Assembly (NCBI GenBank): GCA_028284905.1
Contig: JANQQU010000037.1
Span: 1-47,334 of the forward strand
Origin: Calditrichia bacterium
GTDB taxonomy: Bacteria > Calditrichota > Calditrichia > RBG-13-44-9 > J075
Direction of reading: 5' to 3'
DNA: 47,334 nt
Below are positions 7,612-34,261 of the stretch, piece after piece. The position numbers were made by a program, and so were the translations under genes. The stretch's first letter is position 1, and every line of letters starts with the position of its first letter. The notes beneath the pieces were generated by a model. The model searched no databases. It saw only the letters and a list, made by a program, of their open reading frames with translations, and was not told the DNA's origin.

Positions 7612-7751
7612 GAAAACCTCGCAGATCTTGTTAATAATGAGTAATTAAAAAATCCCTCGCCCAATTGACTAAATGCCAATCCAGAAAAGATACCGCACGG
7701 AAATGAAGGGGACAAATGTTTGTTGGAAAAATGGGACCGTTCTCGGTCGTT

Positions 7752-7815
7752 CGTTAATCCGTTATCTGTGTAGAGAAAATTCATGAATTTTCTCTACACA
7801 GATAACGGATTAACG
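7752..7815. repeat. Perfect 64-bp palindrome (hairpin element 1)
   Basis: Positions 7752-7783 are the exact reverse complement of 7784-7815. The centre is tcatga. Its 30-bp core (7769-7798) is identical to that of the palindrome at 10740-10823; the arms consist of ~7-8-bp units (tcgttaa, tccgtta; aacggatt on the other side). It starts 2 bp after the stop of the phosphodiester glycosidase gene, which is transcribed away from 9503 towards it. Confidence 0.95.
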
Positions 7816-7817
7816 GA

Positions 7818-9503
7818 TTAACGAATTAAAATCATTTTTTTCTGTTGGAAATGATCATCGAAAATAAATCGGTAAAAATAAATGCCGCTGCTAACCGGCA
7901 AACCATTATCATCTTTTCCGTTCCAGCGGATTTGATGAGAACCGTTTTGCCGGGTTGCATCAAGGAGGGTGGAAATTCGTTCTCCAAGAATATTGTAAAC
8001 CATCAGTTGAACGTGGGCAGTCTCTTTTAACTCAAACGCGATTGTTGTCGAAGGATTAAACGGATTGGGAAAATTTTGAGAGAGCGATGCTTTCAACGGC
8101 AAGGCAGAATTGTTTTCGGAAGAGATACCAACAGTAATCGTCGTATCAAAAGAAACGAAGCGTATGGCATCGGCAACAATAAAATCTCCGCTGGTGGCAA
8201 GGTTGGATATCTGCACGGCGTCGCTGGTATCTCCACTAAAAGTAAAACTGCCCAGTAAATTCCAGCTACTCCCCTGAGTCGTTTGATCCATCCGCACCGT
8301 ATCGATACCATTCATGTGATGAATAATAAATGGCGTGTCCAGACAGCGGTTCGGGGCTGCGACCCACCAGGCATAAACTTCATACTCGCTCATCTGTGGA
8401 AGATTCGGGCGAAAGTGCGCATAACTATCGCCAGTGCCACGCGGGTTCAGTTGCGCCGGAGTGCCGCCCCAGTAACCGGCATTTGCCGAGGGAAACCAGC
8501 CAGGGCCGATTAAGCTGGCACCACCATCCTCGGTATCAATGATTTCCTGGTAAGTTGGCCGGGGCGGTACCGGAATTGAATCGGAATGGACAACGGCCAG
8601 TATTGACGGGATCGGGCGCTGAAAAAATCCACCTTCCGGCCGGTTGATCAGGCTACTCCCGACAGCCATCTGGCTGGAGCCCCCGCCGTCAAGGTTCATC
8701 GCTTCCACGCAGCCGAGGTTAAACAAAATATCCGCCAGCTCGGTCAGGCTGACGCCTTCGCTCCAGGTATTGTCCCGGCCATCGGCAACAAAAAGGATGA
8801 GATGATTGTTCGCGGTAAACCCTACAGCAGTGCGTGGATCACGATTACTGAGGCCAACACCGGATCCCCAGAAAACCTCTTCAGTATAGCTAATGTTTAT
8901 CGCCCCATTATCAATCAGCGCCGGGCCGCCTCCAATACCAACGGCAAGATCGTTGTACTGTTGTCCGTTAGTAGAATCCGGTAGTGCTGCCGGGGAGCCA
9001 ATCGCATTGGGATTCGGTACGGGGAAGGTATATATTCCGGAAACGCTGCTGTTAAAATGATAGATCCAGTCTACCGACATCTGCTTTTCATAATCAACAC
9101 CAAAAAAGCTGCGGGTGAGCGGATATGTGAGATTATCCCGCACGACAGCGGCAATATTCTGCGCGAGCACTTCTTCCGGATAAACCACGCTGGAAACGGA
9201 TGTAGTCCCGGAAAAATAACCTCCGTTAACAGCGGCAAAAGCACCGGCAGAATGGGTAAATTCGCTAATGCCAAGCGGTGTGCCAAGGTAAGGCCGCACA
9301 GCAAGATCGGCGACATTCATATCTACTTCAAGATACCATGCTTTCAGGATCGGCGATTGGCGCTCTCCCTGAAATAGTTGAACACCCGCAGGGAGCGAAT
9401 GTTGACTGCTGATGTTCGTCCAGGTAATTTCCTGAGAAAAGGCTATTGTTGAGAGTAAAAAGAAAAAGCCAAAAATCGCTAAGATTTGCGTCAGAACTTT
9501 CAA
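7818..9503 (-). CDS. Secreted phosphodiester glycosidase (NAGPA domain) with golvesin-like domain and sorting tail
   Basis: 561 residues. A Sec signal peptide (~1-23, ending IAFS|QE) is followed by a NAGPA/phosphodiester glycosidase domain (~55-310) with 'FAAVNGGYF', 'DPRTAVGF', 'LFVADGR' and 'AMNLDGGGSSQMA', the conserved core of the family that includes mammalian uncovering enzyme and bacterial exopolysaccharide-related members. A beta domain follows (~318-455) resembling the golvesin/xanthan-lyase-type carbohydrate-associated domain (EDGGASLIGPGWFPS, GYWGG, YAHFRPNLP). The end (~478-561) is a sorting tail (LSQNFPNPFNPSTTIAFEL, IYFYRF..., QQKKMILIR). Likely acts outside the cell on glycan phosphodiester or phosphoglycan linkages; the substrate is not known. 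The start is TTG (9501-9503), supported by a ggggggac ribosome site directly upstream. Confidence 0.88.
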   Translation of the reverse strand: MKVLTQILAIFGFFFLLSTIAFSQEITWTNISSQHSLPAGVQLFQGERQSPILKAWYLEVDMNVADLAVRPYLGTPLGISEFTHSAGAFAAVNGGYFSGTTSVSSVVYPEEVLAQNIAAVVRDNLTYPLTRSFFGVDYEKQMSVDWIYHFNSSVSGIYTFPVPNPNAIGSPAALPDSTNGQQYNDLAVGIGGGPALIDNGAINISYTEEVFWGSGVGLSNRDPRTAVGFTANNHLILFVADGRDNTWSEGVSLTELADILFNLGCVEAMNLDGGGSSQMAVGSSLINRPEGGFFQRPIPSILAVVHSDSIPVPPRPTYQEIIDTEDGGASLIGPGWFPSANAGYWGGTPAQLNPRGTGDSYAHFRPNLPQMSEYEVYAWWVAAPNRCLDTPFIIHHMNGIDTVRMDQTTQGSSWNLLGSFTFSGDTSDAVQISNLATSGDFIVADAIRFVSFDTTITVGISSENNSALPLKASLSQNFPNPFNPSTTIAFELKETAHVQLMVYNILGERISTLLDATRQNGSHQIRWNGKDDNGLPVSSGIYFYRFIFDDHFQQKKMILIR

Positions 9504-9697
9504 AAATGTCCCCCCGGGTTAATAGTGACTTTACAGGTGAATATGTTGACAAAAAATACAAAGAAATTTGAAAAATCGCAAAACGCTGGCAGTTGAGATC
9601 AATCAGCCGTATTCCTGATTTGCAGGAATTTTTTCTTACTTTATGCGATGGAATAGGGTATCTTGTAAAGAGACAATTTCAACAGAGGAGCAGGATC

Positions 9698-10744
9698 ATG
9701 AGGGATATTCTCGGGGAGATTACCCGCTGGCGGGCGGAAAAAAGATCGTTTGTTTTAGCCCGGGTCACGCAAACCTGGGGATCTGCACCGCGCCGCACCG
9801 GCGCAGCGATGATTATCTCCGACCGTCAGGAAGTGGCTGGTTCGGTCAGCGGGGGATGCATCGAAGGCGCAGTGGTGGATGCCGCCGGCACCGTCCTTGA
9901 GCGAGGAAAACCGGTACATCTCCATTTTGGTGTGACCAACGAAACTGCCTGGTCCGTCGGGTTAACCTGTGGGGGAAAAGTGAGTGTATGGCTTTCCCCA
10001 TATCCGGCGTTATCCGGGGAACGGGACACTCAGAAAATCGGTGAAGCCCTGGAGGAGAATCTGCAGGGAAATCGGCCATGCATTCTCTTAACCCGGCTGG
10101 ATCCGGAAAGCCCGCAGCATTTGCTGGTGTTGCCCGACGGCAGTACAATTGGTGATTGGGGAAATCAGACGGTAGCTGCGGTTCAAATCGCCTTGTCTCA
10201 CTATACACGTCGGCAAAACGGTGAAGCAATACTGGATGAACAGCCGATCTTCGTACACAGTTTTCCCCGCAAACAGCGCCTGTTGATTATTGGCGCAGCG
10301 CATATTTCCATTCCCCTGGTAACGTTTGGGAAGCAATTGGGTTTCGAGGTGATTATTGTTGATCCCCGGCAGATTTTCGGCAACGCTGATCGTTTTCAAA
10401 CGGCGCCGGATGAGATGTATAATCAATGGCCGGATGATATTTTGCCGACCCTTGCGCCGGATGAGGATACCTTTGCAGTACTCTTGACCCATGATCCGAA
10501 AATAGATGACCCGGCTTTACACCTGCTTTTAAAAACGCCGGTCGGCTATATCGGCGCATTGGGGAGTAAAAAGAATCAGGCAAAACGAGTGACTCGTTTA
10601 CAGGAAGCCGGATTTGACATGAATGAGATAAAACGTATTCATGGACCAGTAGGATTGGATATCGGTGCAAAGACCCCGGAGGAAATTGCCCTGAGCATCA
10701 TCTCGCAAATTGTGCAGGTGCGGGAATCGCGGAAAAATCGTTGA
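9698..10744 (+). CDS. xdhC: XdhC-family protein, molybdenum cofactor maturation for xanthine dehydrogenase-type enzymes
   Basis: 348 residues. The N-terminal XdhC/CoxI domain has 'TWGSAPRRTGAAMII' and 'GSVSGGCIEGAVVDAA' (~24-70) and 'VGLTCGG' (~88); the C-terminal Rossmann domain starts 'RLLIIGAAHISIPLV' (~190) and contains 'VVDPR'-type and 'YIGALGSKKN' motifs. XdhC proteins bind molybdenum cofactor, take part in its sulfuration and deliver it to hydroxylases of the xanthine dehydrogenase family. The ATG at 9698 is preferred to the in-frame TTG at 9593 because a strong gaggag site lies 7-12 nt before it. The next gene is its probable client. The stop codon (10742-10744) lies within the left arm of an 84-bp palindrome. 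Confidence 0.9.
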   Translation: MRDILGEITRWRAEKRSFVLARVTQTWGSAPRRTGAAMIISDRQEVAGSVSGGCIEGAVVDAAGTVLERGKPVHLHFGVTNETAWSVGLTCGGKVSVWLSPYPALSGERDTQKIGEALEENLQGNRPCILLTRLDPESPQHLLVLPDGSTIGDWGNQTVAAVQIALSHYTRRQNGEAILDEQPIFVHSFPRKQRLLIIGAAHISIPLVTFGKQLGFEVIIVDPRQIFGNADRFQTAPDEMYNQWPDDILPTLAPDEDTFAVLLTHDPKIDDPALHLLLKTPVGYIGALGSKKNQAKRVTRLQEAGFDMNEIKRIHGPVGLDIGAKTPEEIALSIISQIVQVRESRKNR

Positions 10745-10823
10745 TCGTTGATCGTTGATTGGTGGTTGTAGAGAAAATTCATGAATTTTCTCTACAACCA
10801 CCAATCAACGATCAACGATCAAC
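10740..10823. repeat. Perfect 84-bp palindrome (hairpin element 2)
   Basis: Positions 10740-10781 are the exact reverse complement of 10782-10823. The centre has the same 30-bp core as the 7752-7815 palindrome (here 10767-10796), but the arms are made of 7-bp units gttgatc, gttgatc, gttgatt. The outer end includes the xdhC stop codon. It lies between xdhC and the molybdenum hydroxylase, 110 bp before the latter's start, so it could attenuate or process the shared transcript. Confidence 0.95.
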
Positions 10824-10933
10824 AAATCCCCCCACAAAAAATTTGATTTTCTCCCCCATCTATCGTAAGATAAAATTAAACCGTTCTCGATATTATGCAT
10901 CCACTTGAGTTGTCTGGAAAGGAGTTCAGCGAA

Positions 10934-15679: not shown

Positions 15680-16003
15680 TGGCACCTCGTTGATCGTTGA
15701 TCGTTGTTAGTTGTTCGTTATTCGTTGATTGTTTTCGGTTATTCTTAAAATTCCGTTCCGCCGTTTTAATCGCCGAGAAAATTTATGCTTTTTTATACGA
15801 TTAAAACATTCGCCGTCAAAAATCCGATTTACGAACAACGAACAACGAATAACGGTCTTTCAGCATTTAAGGTTTGTTTTCCGCAAAACATGGAATTAAT
15901 ATTTTGCTTCTGTATTTGTCAACTGTATTCTTTGAACTTTCTGAATAATCCGGCGTTCGATCGGCAGTAAGCTAACGAAACCGGTAAATGGGATGTGCTG
16001 ATT
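15680..16003. other. Divergent intergenic region 15680-16003
   Basis: 324 bp between divergent genes, so promoters for both must lie here or upstream of the hairpin. About half is the heptamer hairpin (15688-15854). The remaining ~150 bp is AT-rich with no recognised operator. Confidence 0.5.
15688..15854. repeat. Imperfect long hairpin of cgttgat/cgaacaa heptamers (hairpin element 5)
   Basis: The left side contains tandem 7-mers cgttgat, cgttgat, cgttgtt, agttgtt, cgttatt, cgttgat (15688 onward); the right side contains acgaaca, acgaaca, acgaata (15831-15854). An inner stem is cgttttaatcg (15762-15772) with cgattaaaac (15798-15807). The loop begins gagaaaatttatg, resembling half of the core shared by the palindromes at 7752 and 10740. 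It directly precedes the ribosome site of the metallophosphoesterase gene. Confidence 0.8.
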
Positions 16004-17240: not shown

Positions 17241-17313
17241 GTTGACAGTTATCAGTGATCAGTAATCAGTTAACAGTTATCAGTAACCAGTGACTAGTAA
17301 TTAGCAACCAGTG
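17241..17313. repeat. Tandem cagttat-type heptamer array (element 6)
   Basis: Consecutive degenerate 7-mers run cagttat, cagtgat, cagtaat, cagttaa, cagttat, cagtaac, cagtgac, then taattag and caaccagtg. Unlike most other elements here no inverted second arm is seen. It begins about 31 bp after the histidine kinase stop and ends about 60 bp before the permease start. Confidence 0.9.
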
Positions 17314-18696: not shown

Positions 18697-18785
18697 TCAA
18701 TGGAAATTCGATTTTCGAGAAACAACAAATTTTCAACAGATAAGAGGGATAGTGTTGTAGTGCTAAAGAAGTAAAGTTGAAAACT

Positions 18786-18872
18786 GTCATCGCGAGGCGC
18801 TTTTTGCCGAAGCGATCCCTTTGTTGCATGCATCTTTTGAGATTGCTTCGTCGTTGCACTCCTCGCAATGAC
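18786..18872. repeat. Dispersed palindromic repeat, gcgaggagtgcaacgacg family, copy A
   Basis: Outer arms gtcatcgcgagg (18786-18797) and cctcgcaatgac (18861-18872) pair at 11 of 12 positions, with second arms gaagcgatccc and gattgcttcgtc inside. The same family recurs at 33975-34062. Sequences of this type are found dispersed in many bacterial genomes as REP-like intergenic elements. Confidence 0.85.
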
Positions 18873-18898
18873 AAATACAGTTAGCACTTAAAAAAGAA

Positions 18899-21454: not shown

Positions 21455-21486
21455 AATTCGGAATTCCGAATTCGGAATTCCGAATT
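21455..21486. repeat. Perfect 32-bp palindrome of aattcgg/aattccg heptamers (hairpin element 7)
   Basis: Four 7-bp units alternate (aattcgg, aattccg, aattcgg, aattccg, then aatt) and the whole 32 bp is its own reverse complement. GAATTC occurs three times at exact 7-bp spacing (21461, 21468, 21475). Flanking ctttaa and ttaaag add a bulged outer stem. It lies 7 bp after the metG stop. Confidence 0.95.
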
Positions 21487-23557: not shown

Positions 23558-23865
23558 AATATTTTCCTCATTTCTTTCAGTAGTCAGGTATAGATGTATC
23601 AAAAACAGGAAGGCCAATTTACAAAATTATCACAGAAAGCCAAATGGGAATATTATTCGGGGAGAATGCTTTGTAAGTGAAAAACATTGAAAGAATGTTG
23701 AATGTCCAATATTTAATTTCCAATGTAAAAGTGTATAATCTGCCTTATTTGGAAATTCGATATTAATTATTGGACATTGGACATTTTATGGGACATTACG
23801 CTTGTTGTAAACATTTTTAGTCGATAATATAAATGATCATCAAATTGAAACCGCTGGATAATCGA
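23558..23865. other. Divergent intergenic region 23558-23865
   Basis: 308 bp between metG (-) and the first M61 lipoprotein gene (+). It holds the heptamer hairpin at 23701-23785; otherwise AT-rich sequence where promoters for both genes are expected. No T-box or SAM-type leader was recognised before metG. Confidence 0.5.
23701..23785. repeat. Inverted array of aatgtcc/attggac heptamers (hairpin element 8)
   Basis: Left arm 7-mers aatgtcc, aatattt, aatttcc, aatgta (23701-23726); right arm ends attggac, attggac, att (23769-23785), with ggaaattcgatattaatt between. The arms are imperfectly complementary and could form a long hairpin between divergent metG and the first M61 gene. Confidence 0.85.
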
Positions 23866-25683
23866 ATGAACAAATACTGCCTCTTCCTCCTGCTCTTACT
23901 GAGTGCCTGCAGCAAGCCGCTGGTGAAGCCGGTTGTCGATGTCGGAGAACGAACGTTTCGCAGCAATTATTATATCGACCTGACCGGGCCGGTGCGCGAT
24001 CAATTTGATGTGGTGATGTCTGTAAATAATCTAACTGCTGAAAATGACACCTTCAATTTTGCCGCAGTTTATCCCGGTTCTTACAGCCTGAAGAATTTCG
24101 GCCGCTTTGTACAGAAATTTGTCGCTTTGGATGCTGTTGGTGAAGAAGTCGCTACAGAAAAAGTGAATGTCAATCAATGGTGGCTGAGCGACCCGAGGCG
24201 AATTGCCCGCATCGAATATACTATTCAGGAAACCTGGGACCATCCGAGGGTTGTGCAGCGCATTGCCGAGATGGGGGGCAGTGCGATTGAGCCGGACTTT
24301 ACTTTTATCAATGGCCCAAGTGTTTTTGGCTATATCAACGGCTTACGGGATGCCCCGCTGCGGATTCATCTGCGGCACCCGCCAGACTGGCGTCGAGGGA
24401 GTGATCTTGATCTTGTGCTGGCAGAAAAAGATCGCTCGGATTTCATCGCGGAAAGTTTTGATGATTTAAATAATGCCCCCTTGCTGCTCGGGGAACTGGA
24501 TTACCATGCGGAAGAAATTCTCGGCACCAAAGTTTATATGTATGTCTATTCCCGCACCGGGAAAATTGCTGCCCGACCGGTATTTGATATCGCCAAAAAG
24601 GTATTGCTTTCCGCTGCCGAATTCATGAATGGACTGCCGGCGCCGGAATATAGTTTTCTTTTCATGTTTGGGGATAGATCCGCCGGCGCGCTGGAGCATC
24701 CCGGCAGCTCTGCCTATGTGATTAGGGAATTACCGCTTGAACGATTGGAGATGTATCTTCGTGATGTGATGGCGCACGAATACTTTCACATCGTTACACC
24801 ATTGAGCGTGCGCAGCACTCCGATTAATGATTTTGATTTCCAGCGGGCGCAACCAACCGCGCATCTCTGGTTCTTCGAGGGCGTTACCGAGTGGGCCTCG
24901 CACATCATGCAACTGCGTAGTGGATTAAAAAGCCAAACAGAATTTTTCACCCGTTCTTTGCGCCAGATGATTTTGCAGGAAATGGTGCGTCCTGCCCCGA
25001 AAAGTTTGCAGGAGATCAGTCTGAATTCCTATGAAGCGCCGGAAAACTTTCGCCATATCTATACCCAGGGCGCGCTCACTGCTTTTCTCCTGGATATTCG
25101 CATTCTCGAACTAAGCGATGGGAAAAAGGGGTTGCGGGAAGTGATCGAGCAACTCCGGCAGGAATATGACCGGGAACGCCCATTCGCGGAAAATGCTTTT
25201 TTTCAACGGATCGTCGATCTCAGTTTTCCGGAAGTGCAGGCATTTATCGATGATCATATTATTGGGAATAAACCGTTGCCCTTTGAAGAATACCTGGCCA
25301 AAATTGCCACGGTATATATGCCCCATTATGAGCCTGAGGAGGCGCGCAGCGAAGCGGGCATTTATCTTGATATCCGCGAGAATGTGGTAAAAATCCTTTG
25401 GCTGGATGCGGATATGACCTCCAGCGGCATCCAGCGCGGTGATGTACTGAAGCAATTCAATGATGTCGAAATCTCTATCGCGAATTATCAGGATTTCTAT
25501 GAGTTGATCAGTACCCTGGAGGTCGGTGAAAGCTATACCCTGATCGTTGAGCGGGATGGTGAAGCAGTGCAGCTCAATTGCCAGACGATTCCTTTTCGGG
25601 TGCGCCATGCCTTTCAACCCATGGAAAATCCCGGCCAGGCTGCGCGGGCGTTGAAGGCAGCGTGGTTGCGCAATTTACCGTAG
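23866..25683 (+). CDS. M61-family (glycyl aminopeptidase-like) peptidase lipoprotein, first of a tandem pair
   Basis: 605 residues. A lipoprotein signal peptide (Met1-Ala14) ends at lipobox LSAC with Cys15. A beta-rich N-terminal region (~25-200) precedes the catalytic domain with 'MAHEYFH' (His304, Glu305, His308) and 'WFFEGVTEWAS', whose Glu338 lies 30 residues after the second His, the spacing I recall for M61 peptidases. A PDZ-like domain (~490-590, 'GIYLDIRENVVKILWLDADM', 'IQRGDVLKQFND') closes the protein. It is likely a zinc peptidase tethered to the outer or inner membrane. I chose ATG 23866 because the signal peptide starts there; the in-frame ATG at 23833 would add 11 charged residues. 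Neither start has a clear ribosome site. Confidence 0.87.
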   Translation: MNKYCLFLLLLLSACSKPLVKPVVDVGERTFRSNYYIDLTGPVRDQFDVVMSVNNLTAENDTFNFAAVYPGSYSLKNFGRFVQKFVALDAVGEEVATEKVNVNQWWLSDPRRIARIEYTIQETWDHPRVVQRIAEMGGSAIEPDFTFINGPSVFGYINGLRDAPLRIHLRHPPDWRRGSDLDLVLAEKDRSDFIAESFDDLNNAPLLLGELDYHAEEILGTKVYMYVYSRTGKIAARPVFDIAKKVLLSAAEFMNGLPAPEYSFLFMFGDRSAGALEHPGSSAYVIRELPLERLEMYLRDVMAHEYFHIVTPLSVRSTPINDFDFQRAQPTAHLWFFEGVTEWASHIMQLRSGLKSQTEFFTRSLRQMILQEMVRPAPKSLQEISLNSYEAPENFRHIYTQGALTAFLLDIRILELSDGKKGLREVIEQLRQEYDRERPFAENAFFQRIVDLSFPEVQAFIDDHIIGNKPLPFEEYLAKIATVYMPHYEPEEARSEAGIYLDIRENVVKILWLDADMTSSGIQRGDVLKQFNDVEISIANYQDFYELISTLEVGESYTLIVERDGEAVQLNCQTIPFRVRHAFQPMENPGQAARALKAAWLRNLP

Positions 25684-25920: not shown

Positions 25921-27732
25921 ATGAAAATACTTTATATAACGATTCTCGCCCTGTTTCTCCTCATCCTCTCCTGCGCGCAACCAACCACCCGACCGGTGAT
26001 AAACAGCGAGCCTTATCGTTTTGCCTGTAAATATTATGTCGACTTAAACGACCGCGCCGATGATCTTTTTAAAGTAACCCTGGAATTGCCGCGGCTGAGA
26101 CCGGCGAATAATCGCTTCAACTTTGCGGCAGTGGGCTCTTTCGCCCGAATGGATTTCGGTCGTTATGTCCGCACATTCAAAGCATTTGACAGCAATGGCG
26201 CCGAAGTGCCGACCCGTCAGGTTTCTACCAATCAATGGCAGTTATCCGAACCATCGCGGGTAAGCAGAATTTATTATGAGATCGCAGAAACCTGGGACAC
26301 ACCTACCAACGGTGGTAAAATCATGGAAATGCTTGGCACGACCCTGGAGCAGGATTTTGCCTTTATCAGCGGGCAGGGTGTTTTTGGCTTCGTATCCGGC
26401 CTGGAAGGCGCGCCGTTAAAAGTAACACTGGACTATCCCAGCGAGTGGACGATCGGCACATCTCATTTGCTCGATACTGATGGCAGTATTCTCTGCCCGA
26501 ATTTCGGCGCCCTTTCCAGCGCGCCGATTCTCCTCGGTTACCTCACCCATCAGGCGGAGCGGATTATCGGCAGCGATGTGTATGTCTATTGCTATTCAAA
26601 GAGCGACCGCATCACCACTGATGATGTAATGCCGATGGTGCAGGATGTGCTTACCGCTACTTATGATTTTCTCGGTGATTTACCGATCGATGATTACACC
26701 ATGCTTTTTATCTTCGAAGATACCGATGCCGGCGGGGTGGAATATCACAACAGCTCTGCCTTCGTTTTCCGCGAAGATGAGTTCTCGAAAGTGCGTCGAC
26801 GCGTTCAGGATGTCATCGCGCACGAATATTTTCACCTGATTATTCCCTTTTCGATCCGCAGCGATATTCTCGATAAATTCAACTTCTTCAAACCGACACC
26901 AACGCAACATCTCTGGTTCTTTGAAGGCGTCACCGAATGGGCCTCGGATATTATCCAGCTGCGTGGCGGCTTAAAATCTATGGATGATTATATTCTGCAG
27001 GATTTTCGACAGAAACTCTTTCAGGAAGATGTCTACGGTGCGGATATCAGTCTGCGGGATATTAGCCTTACCTCTCATCAAAATCAGGAAGAATATCTTA
27101 ATGTATACAGCCGCGGCGCATTGGTGGCAGCCTTGCTTGATATTCATCTGCTCGATCTCACGCATGGCCGCCGTGGTTTGCGGGATGTGATTGTCGATCT
27201 TAGTAAGGATTATGGTAAAGAACGACCGTTGCCAGAGGAAAAATTCTTCGAAATTCTTATCGATTATTCCGGCCCGGAAGTGGAAGATTTTATTCGCAAA
27301 TACATCATCGGTAATGCCCCCTTACCGACCAAGGAAGTGCTGGAAACAATTGGTATTATTTATGATGAAGAAATTCCGGCGAAAGAGCAGCGTAGTGATC
27401 TTGGGATGCTCTTTTCGAATAATCCCGGCCCGGTAGAGGTGTTGTGGGTAAACGAGCGGGTTGCCGATATGGGCATCAAAAAAGGAGATGTTGTTCAGCG
27501 CTTTAACGGACGGGCAGTGCATCATCGCAATTATTCCAATCTGCTCTATCGGGATGTATTTCGGATGGATATCGGGGACAGCTACGAAATGGAAATCCTT
27601 CGGGACGGCCGCCCGATGAAGATTGTTGGGGAAACCATCGAAAACCTTATTCGCCACGCGTTCTCACTGCCAAGGATGCTCACCCCGCAGCAGCAAAAAG
27701 TTCGTATGGAGTGGTTAAACATTCGACCTTGA
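25921..27732 (+). CDS. M61-family peptidase lipoprotein, second of a tandem pair
   Basis: 603 residues, clearly paralogous to the preceding gene over its whole length (shared 'Y.D...', 'NQW.LS.P.R..RI.Y.I.ETWD', 'HEYFH', 'HLWFFEGVTEWAS', 'IIGN.PLP'). Signal peptide ends at lipobox LSC with Cys18. Zinc ligands His301, Glu302, His305 and Glu335, again 30 residues after the second His. C-terminal PDZ-like part ('VEVLWVNERVADMGIKKGDV'). Sequence divergence is high enough that the duplication is old. Probably acts with its sister on peptides in the periplasm or at the surface. ATG 25921 starts the signal peptide; the upstream in-frame ATG at 25864 lies in repeat sequence and is rejected. Confidence 0.87.
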   Translation: MKILYITILALFLLILSCAQPTTRPVINSEPYRFACKYYVDLNDRADDLFKVTLELPRLRPANNRFNFAAVGSFARMDFGRYVRTFKAFDSNGAEVPTRQVSTNQWQLSEPSRVSRIYYEIAETWDTPTNGGKIMEMLGTTLEQDFAFISGQGVFGFVSGLEGAPLKVTLDYPSEWTIGTSHLLDTDGSILCPNFGALSSAPILLGYLTHQAERIIGSDVYVYCYSKSDRITTDDVMPMVQDVLTATYDFLGDLPIDDYTMLFIFEDTDAGGVEYHNSSAFVFREDEFSKVRRRVQDVIAHEYFHLIIPFSIRSDILDKFNFFKPTPTQHLWFFEGVTEWASDIIQLRGGLKSMDDYILQDFRQKLFQEDVYGADISLRDISLTSHQNQEEYLNVYSRGALVAALLDIHLLDLTHGRRGLRDVIVDLSKDYGKERPLPEEKFFEILIDYSGPEVEDFIRKYIIGNAPLPTKEVLETIGIIYDEEIPAKEQRSDLGMLFSNNPGPVEVLWVNERVADMGIKKGDVVQRFNGRAVHHRNYSNLLYRDVFRMDIGDSYEMEILRDGRPMKIVGETIENLIRHAFSLPRMLTPQQQKVRMEWLNIRP

Positions 27733-27791
27733 GGCAAATGGGCAAATGGGCAAATGGGCAAAAATACTAATCTGCCCATTTGCCTATTTGC
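27733..27791. repeat. Inverted array of gcaaatgg octamers (hairpin element 10)
   Basis: ggcaaatg units repeat three times with 8-bp period (27733-27760) and pair with tgcccatttgcctatttgc (27773-27791). It begins immediately after the stop codon of the second M61 gene (27730-27732) and ends 6 bp before the stop of the convergent alkaline phosphatase gene, so it could act as a shared transcript end. Confidence 0.92.
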
Positions 27792-33840: not shown

Positions 33841-34261
33841 TTTCTATCCAGCGGTTTATCATGTTTTTTAGTAAAAATTAGATGCACTATATAACCACTC
33901 TGCCGATCCGGTGGCAGTAGACTGTCTTACAGAATTTAAAAATTGATAGTGTTAAAGAAGTATTGCTACAAGCTGTCATCGCGAGGAGTGCAACGACGTG
34001 GCGATCTTTCTGTAGATGTAACTTATGGGATTGCTTCTCCCGGCAGCCGGGATCACAATGACGAGGCAAACAACATTACATGATTAATACTATCTAAAAA
34101 ATAAGGTGTTTTAAATTTATGTTCTGATAATTCGGAACAATCTTAAAAAGAGTTTGCCACTTTAAAAAAACTGATTATATTTCTGCGAGTTATTTATATT
34201 TAAGGAAAGATACTTACCCCCGGCCTTCCCCGATAATCTGTTTATTTCTGGAAATTTTTTA
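33841..34261. other. Divergent intergenic region 33841-34261
   Basis: 421 bp between the kelch gene (-) and folC (+). It contains the dispersed repeat copy B (33975-34062) flanked by AT-rich sequence that should carry both promoters. No gene or RNA was recognised. Confidence 0.55.
33975..34062. repeat. Dispersed palindromic repeat, gcgaggagtgcaacgacg family, copy B
   Basis: Left arm gtcatcgcgaggagtgcaac, continuing gacgtggcgatc (33975-34006), matches closely the reverse complement of the right arm of copy A (18841-18872). The right side (gggattgcttc... cacaatgac, ending 34062) is degenerate and contains an extra small hairpin cccggcagccggg. Confidence 0.82.

Follow-up and report, generated by a model that had tools for sequence, protein, structure and literature searches.

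A putative double-foot REP centred in inverted heptamer arrays at gene ends of a Calditrichia bacterium

Introduction

Heptamer repeats between genes constitute the STRR of cyanobacteria, and the SDR elements of Nostoc, ascribed to Elhai et al. 2008 (cited in PMC4390886), are reportedly 21-27 nt long, show compensatory changes and are often embedded in tandem heptamers. The TAACTGA arrays of Beggiatoaceae are direct repeats with a single inverted one (PMC4679880). Among REPs, the sections of Quentin et al. 2018 (PMC6006769) that treat TnpAREP subclass 2.4 give as its trait a double foot together with insertion inside the gene of the REP-associated tyrosine transposase (RAYT), and they present the fusion of an inverted dimer as a possible origin of the double-foot unit. 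RAYT action on single-stranded DNA has been studied as well (PMC8266576). Quasipalindrome correction, according to the abstracts of PMC7202029 and PMC8794818, proceeds by template switching in which one arm templates the other and an imperfect palindrome becomes perfect. Here, we describe two palindromes that touch on all of these systems.

Results

The window, by which we mean the whole stretch of DNA analysed (47,334 nucleotides of contig JANQQU010000037.1 from a Calditrichia bacterium), contains two palindromes that a first-pass annotation had described as perfect over 64 and 84 bp. A recheck of the sequence bore this out, with 7752-7815 and 10740-10823 each an exact self-reverse-complement. 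The features are as follows.

7752..7815, no strand: 64-bp perfect palindrome, with imperfect symmetry out to 7743-7824; its end lies 3 bp from the stop of a minus-strand gene
7752..7769, plus strand: left arm of the 64-bp palindrome, 18 bp, CGTTAATCCGTTATCTGT
7770..7797, no strand: 28-bp core, putative double-foot REP, identical to the core at 10768-10795
7798..7815, minus strand: right arm of the 64-bp palindrome, an exact inverted copy, with an extra CGTTAATC unit just outside
10740..10823, no strand: 84-bp perfect palindrome, overlapping the stop codon of the XdhC gene
10740..10767, plus strand: left arm of the 84-bp palindrome, 28 bp, heptamer array (GTTGATC)n
10768..10795, no strand: 28-bp core, putative double-foot REP, GTAGAGAAAATTCATGAATTTTCTCTAC, with 39 own-genome copies and the same core within RAYT genes
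10796..10823, minus strand: right arm of the 84-bp palindrome, the exact inverted copy of its left arm
15685..15856, no strand: two heptamer arrays in inverted orientation, forming a hairpin that has no intact REP
21455..21486, no strand: 32-bp heptamer palindrome without a REP core

The annotated 30-bp core is indeed identical at 7769-7798 and 10767-10796, but conservation across all copies covers 28 bp (7770-7797 and 10768-10795); the T/A pair outside these is simply the one seen most often in that position, with T in 57% of own-genome flanks. Gapless palindromes with arms of at least 16 number only three in 447 kb of the own genome, the two in the window and 21455-21486, and a chance origin of the window palindromes is therefore excluded. 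Folded as single-stranded DNA, the two reach -46.9 and -32.0 kcal/mol (z about -16). An Rfam scan of the window gave no match. Within the hairpin at 15685-15856, positions 15772-15799 may be a decayed core, given a weak match by eye of 17 of 28 bases.

Both window copies stand at the 3' ends of genes, one for a secreted NAGPA-domain protein and the other for XdhC, the latter followed by a xanthine dehydrogenase-type gene, and such gene ends are the usual setting for REPs. Across the own genome, copies lie between co-directional (18), convergent (11) and divergent (3) gene pairs and within ORFs (4). Profile searches placed no Y1 transposase on the window contig (C43). Elsewhere, the window holds tandem paralogous genes 2046 bp apart (24658-24930 and 26704-26976) and a protein gene with internal repeats of 222-225 bp (2-1428).

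The 28-bp core follows the formula GTAGAGA-NN-ATTCATGAAT-NN-TCTCTAC. Searching the 8.55-Mb own genome for GTAGAGA-N14-TCTCTAC returned 39 places on many contigs, compared with 1 for the reversed pattern; all 39 copies have the 5' GT[AG]G and 3' C[TC]AC ends that delimit subclass 2.4, as the pattern itself, which demanded GTAGAG...CTCTAC ends, required of them. Outside the own genome, more than 110 contigs carry an identical core, with Bacteroidota, Cyanobacteria, CPR lineages, Planctomycetes, Ignavibacteria and Desulfobulbaceae among the lineages represented, and of 40 relatives 16 have a related core such as GTAGAGACGTTGCATGCAACGTCTCTAC. The two bases 3' of GTAGAGA are AA, CG, CA or TG and are nearly always matched on the opposite side; over only 9 distinct alignment rows, the stem covariation score was 0.175 versus 0.073 in shuffled alignments, with 0 of 500 shuffles scoring as high. 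The copies have a long, nearly perfect stem with compensated changes, and four own-genome cores carry unpaired ones. Being one gapless 28-bp unit, the core is not composed of two separate inverted REPs with a spacer, as a REPIN is. A relaxed search of the own genome found few half units, and in view of this rarity we rejected the idea that half palindromes dispersed in the genome had folded to give the full ones. Core sequence strings in literature text had only unrelated matches among those listed.

Other repeats were seen alongside. In Microcystis (L231, L243), a tandem array of the palindrome's own 14-bp half (GGAATTATCCCTAC) follows the palindrome, and arrays of 21-23 bp at own-genome loci L054 and L060 are similar to these half-unit arrays. 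The own genome (G000) also has another REP type, GTAGGGGCGATCAAATGATCGCCCCTAC, at L275:2991-3018 (C69), and a GTAGAGACGGATC hairpin between inverted heptamer arrays at L281:2240-2380 (C39).

Locus-versus-locus comparison exposed a conserved gene spanning the core that encodes a Y1/HUH transposase. At L072, L124, L134 and L148 the in-frame translation of the core is VEKIHEFSL, placed right after the HuH motif PNHIHLII, and in many genomes the palindrome lies in frame between the HuH and Y motifs of the RAYT gene. Matches to NCBIfam REP_Tyr_transpos have E values of 1e-7 to 4e-19, under the strict cut-off of the family, and profile searches found a RAYT gene in 24 of 31 genomes. Many of these matches hold a lineage-specific double-foot palindrome at a comparable position, mostly in the same reading frame (RAYTs of Microcystis, Roizmanbacteria, own-class relatives and others), and the own genome, G005 and G031 each have, within or next to the RAYT gene, a palindrome of the type dispersed across that genome. 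The annotation had proposed the core as a possible recognition site, naming a REP-associated tyrosine transposase, and both its 39 copies and its in-frame position inside RAYT genes support this. On sequence grounds, we assign the core to the double-foot REPs of TnpAREP subclass 2.4 / RAYT group 4, because a double foot combined with in-gene insertion is the mark of that subclass in PMC6006769.

For an active system, an intact cognate RAYT with the motifs NH[IFV]H, WQ and YIxNNP is expected, which is not required of a REP copy. In the own genome, C13 carries a 145-aa RAYT remnant that has lost its 3' half past the palindrome it contains and that has a second such palindrome upstream, and on C73 a RAYT reads nearly full length (NHFH, WQ, YILNN) with no REP nearby. 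An intact RAYT with this palindrome was found neither in the own genome nor in the high-copy genomes G042, G045 and G046, most assemblies being fragmented; this limits what can be claimed on present activity and leaves the assignment to kind unaffected.

Outside the 28-bp core, the symmetry of own-genome copies continues for 0 to 28 bp, with little or none in most. Every sampled copy in one Saprospiraceae genus has arms of 4-8 bp, and in MAG-117 a symmetric arm was present in 0 of 18 sampled copies. Inverted likeness of the flanks exceeded the control in 14 of 39 own-genome copies and direct likeness in 1 of 39; in several, the inverted arms end 3-40 nt before the core. Identical cores bear differing arms, so the arms belong mostly to the locus, and for the same reason we rejected, for most copies, the idea that arms and core move together as a unit. 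A few Saprospiraceae copies have flanking repeats of 80-180 nt in common. Heptamer arrays at 10735-10768 and 10799-10827 give the arms of the 84-bp palindrome tandem 7-bp repeats, and at 7752-7815 the arms show no more than a loose periodicity (7/8 nt). An inverted partner lies within 300 bp of 20 of 33 surveyed own-genome heptamer arrays (control 1%) and a direct partner of 6, and the inverted arrays are mostly without the REP core. The idea of a modular cassette with exchangeable heptamer arms was thus not upheld; we take the arms to be locus-specific flanks, here 7-mer arrays.

At the MAG-117 loci (L079-L141), the first flanking bases were unmatched in 18 of 18 (0.75^18 = 0.006 by chance), and the flanks often have a one-base direct repeat instead. 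Between genes of the window there are further a GCAAATGG heptamer hairpin (27734-27791), a TGTCCAA-type inverted repeat (23694-23785), a TGTCATCGCGAGG hairpin (18757-18875, with a second copy at 33947-34013) and TAACTGA-type heptamers (17246-17291).

Orthologous copies change symmetrically. At L094, three congeners in one Saprospiraceae genus each have a perfect palindrome (CGTTT-GTAG..CTAC-AAACG, CGTTT-ATAG..CTAT-AAACG and CGTTTT-GTAG..CTAC-AAAACG), the differences being a symmetric foot change (G:C to A:T) and one base gained in each arm (+1/+1). At L128/L306, in the same genus, a core A:T pair has become C:G on both sides, and Microcystis copies differ by a symmetric change at the centre (CATG versus CCGG). 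Such events are few, numbering four, and single unpaired changes also occur (L306 left arm, L223), so that arm pairs, which the annotation asked to be checked for invariable covariation, do undergo symmetric double changes at orthologous loci but not always. Because of these double changes, the arms appear to have been corrected against each other, most simply via hairpin template switching. Symmetry in the ATAG/CTAT allele, which has lost the foot, is better accounted for by copying than by selection for recognition by the transposase. Of the two readings offered earlier, arm-to-arm copying or very young elements, the former gains from orthologous change on both arms and youth is not required, as copies persist between congeneric species.

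At the L094 spot, the more distant genomes G052 and G051 have heptamer arrays and no REP; at L126, an inverted cassette of about 180 bp with a central REP is missing whole in two related genomes. A search for clean empty sites among G044 congeners and in Microcystis yielded only the whole-unit absence at L126 and the REP-less heptamer spacer at L094, neither of which settles the order of events. When L088 (G044) is compared with L223 (G042), the latter genome is seen to have some 2 kb of additional DNA that starts exactly at the CGAT-arm edge of the orthologous REP, as if a break had happened there.

Discussion

We consider it probable that the palindrome is a double-foot REP centred in inverted 7-mer arrays at a gene 3' end, spread by a RAYT and with arms made by template switching. 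This model starts from what can be read directly: the copies, the foot motif, the compensated stem, the palindrome inside RAYT genes, the inverted heptamer flanks and the symmetric changes in orthologs. In the model, a RAYT would have spread the REPs in the form of single-stranded hairpins, and this RAYT is probably the one that survives as a broken gene in the own genome. Replication would then switch template and turn back at the REP hairpin, the nascent strand folding back to copy its own arm, and this copying would make or repair a perfect arm of variable length starting exactly at the core. Against this explanation stand the failure to find an intact RAYT with this palindrome in the own genome, G042, G045 and G046, the unpaired single changes and the small number of symmetric events. 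Moreover, the arms are no necessary product of insertion, since all 18 sampled MAG-117 copies are without a symmetric one, and the range of 4-8 bp in the Saprospiraceae genus is narrower than free template switching predicts.

It is plausible, if somewhat short of probable, that the REP instead entered the tip of a pre-existing heptamer hairpin, making the arms older than the core and independent of it. Heptamer hairpins without a REP are common, G052 and G051 have heptamer arrays and no REP at L094, and own-genome arms that end 3-40 nt off the core look as if the REP sat in a loop; both window copies, however, are symmetric right up to the core with zero spare loop bases, and the L126 cassette is missing whole in two relatives. 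A long hairpin in RNA or DNA, acting as a terminator or protecting mRNA ends, could be under selection, with symmetry kept by independent compensatory mutations. This would fit the covarying stem pairs and the location of copies mostly at gene 3' ends, but we regard it as unlikely in view of the symmetric +1/+1 change and the loss of the GTAG foot on both sides inside one genus, the absence of a T-run after the window palindromes and the many armless copies. The annotation had itself raised an assembly artefact, for example from foldback reads, together with a core confined to two sites, as grounds for discarding its claim. We found no evidence in support, and an artefact is scarcely credible when 39 copies on many contigs share one core that recurs in many independent assemblies, at orthologous positions conserved in related species.

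Extending the template-switching model, we tentatively propose that REP hairpins might seed self-templated palindromes, with replication turning back repeatedly at the REP, copying the flank inverted and keeping the arms identical, and that REPs and heptamer arrays together could build long intergenic hairpins in many phyla. Three curiosities that are usually treated separately, REP palindromes, heptamer arrays and perfect palindromes, are in this way tied to one testable process, and the orthologous loci supply examples of both arms of a natural palindrome changing together. How a repeat this small spreads or stays constant across phyla is a further question, posed by the presence of one and the same 28-bp core in CPR bacteria, Cyanobacteria, Planctomycetes and Bacteroidota.

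Among known systems, the Nostoc SDR elements are alike in size, compensatory changes and heptamer setting, a likeness at the level of description. Intergenic tandem 7-mers are shared with the STRR and Beggiatoaceae arrays and are common to Cyanobacteria, Bacteroidota and Beggiatoaceae, the window even having a TAACTGA-type word at 17246-17291, but inverted pairs prevail here, unlike in Beggiatoaceae (PMC4679880). Similarly to the GTAG REP families of Di Nocera et al. 2013 (PMC3733652), the core is a GTAG-tagged short palindrome between genes, at times inside a longer one; those families have an unpaired GTAG at one end and share a single consensus of the outer palindrome within each family, whereas here a GTAG foot stands at both ends and the outer arms differ by locus. 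Arm-templated symmetry recalls quasipalindrome correction, the abstracts of which (PMC7202029, PMC8794818) make no link to REPs. The closest likeness is to TnpAREP subclass 2.4 / RAYT group 4 as treated in the relevant passages of PMC6006769: a palindrome that opens with GTAG and closes with the reverse complement, a long stem, in-frame insertion in the RAYT between the HuH and Y motifs, and a distribution scattered over many phyla. The present case differs in that the palindrome-bearing RAYT is broken in the own genome and in its locus-specific symmetric arms, inverted heptamer arrays around the REP and concerted arm change, which do not figure in those passages. What is unusual relative to known double-foot REPs is thus that the REP is seated in hairpin arms of 7-base repeats and that these arms change jointly in related genomes.
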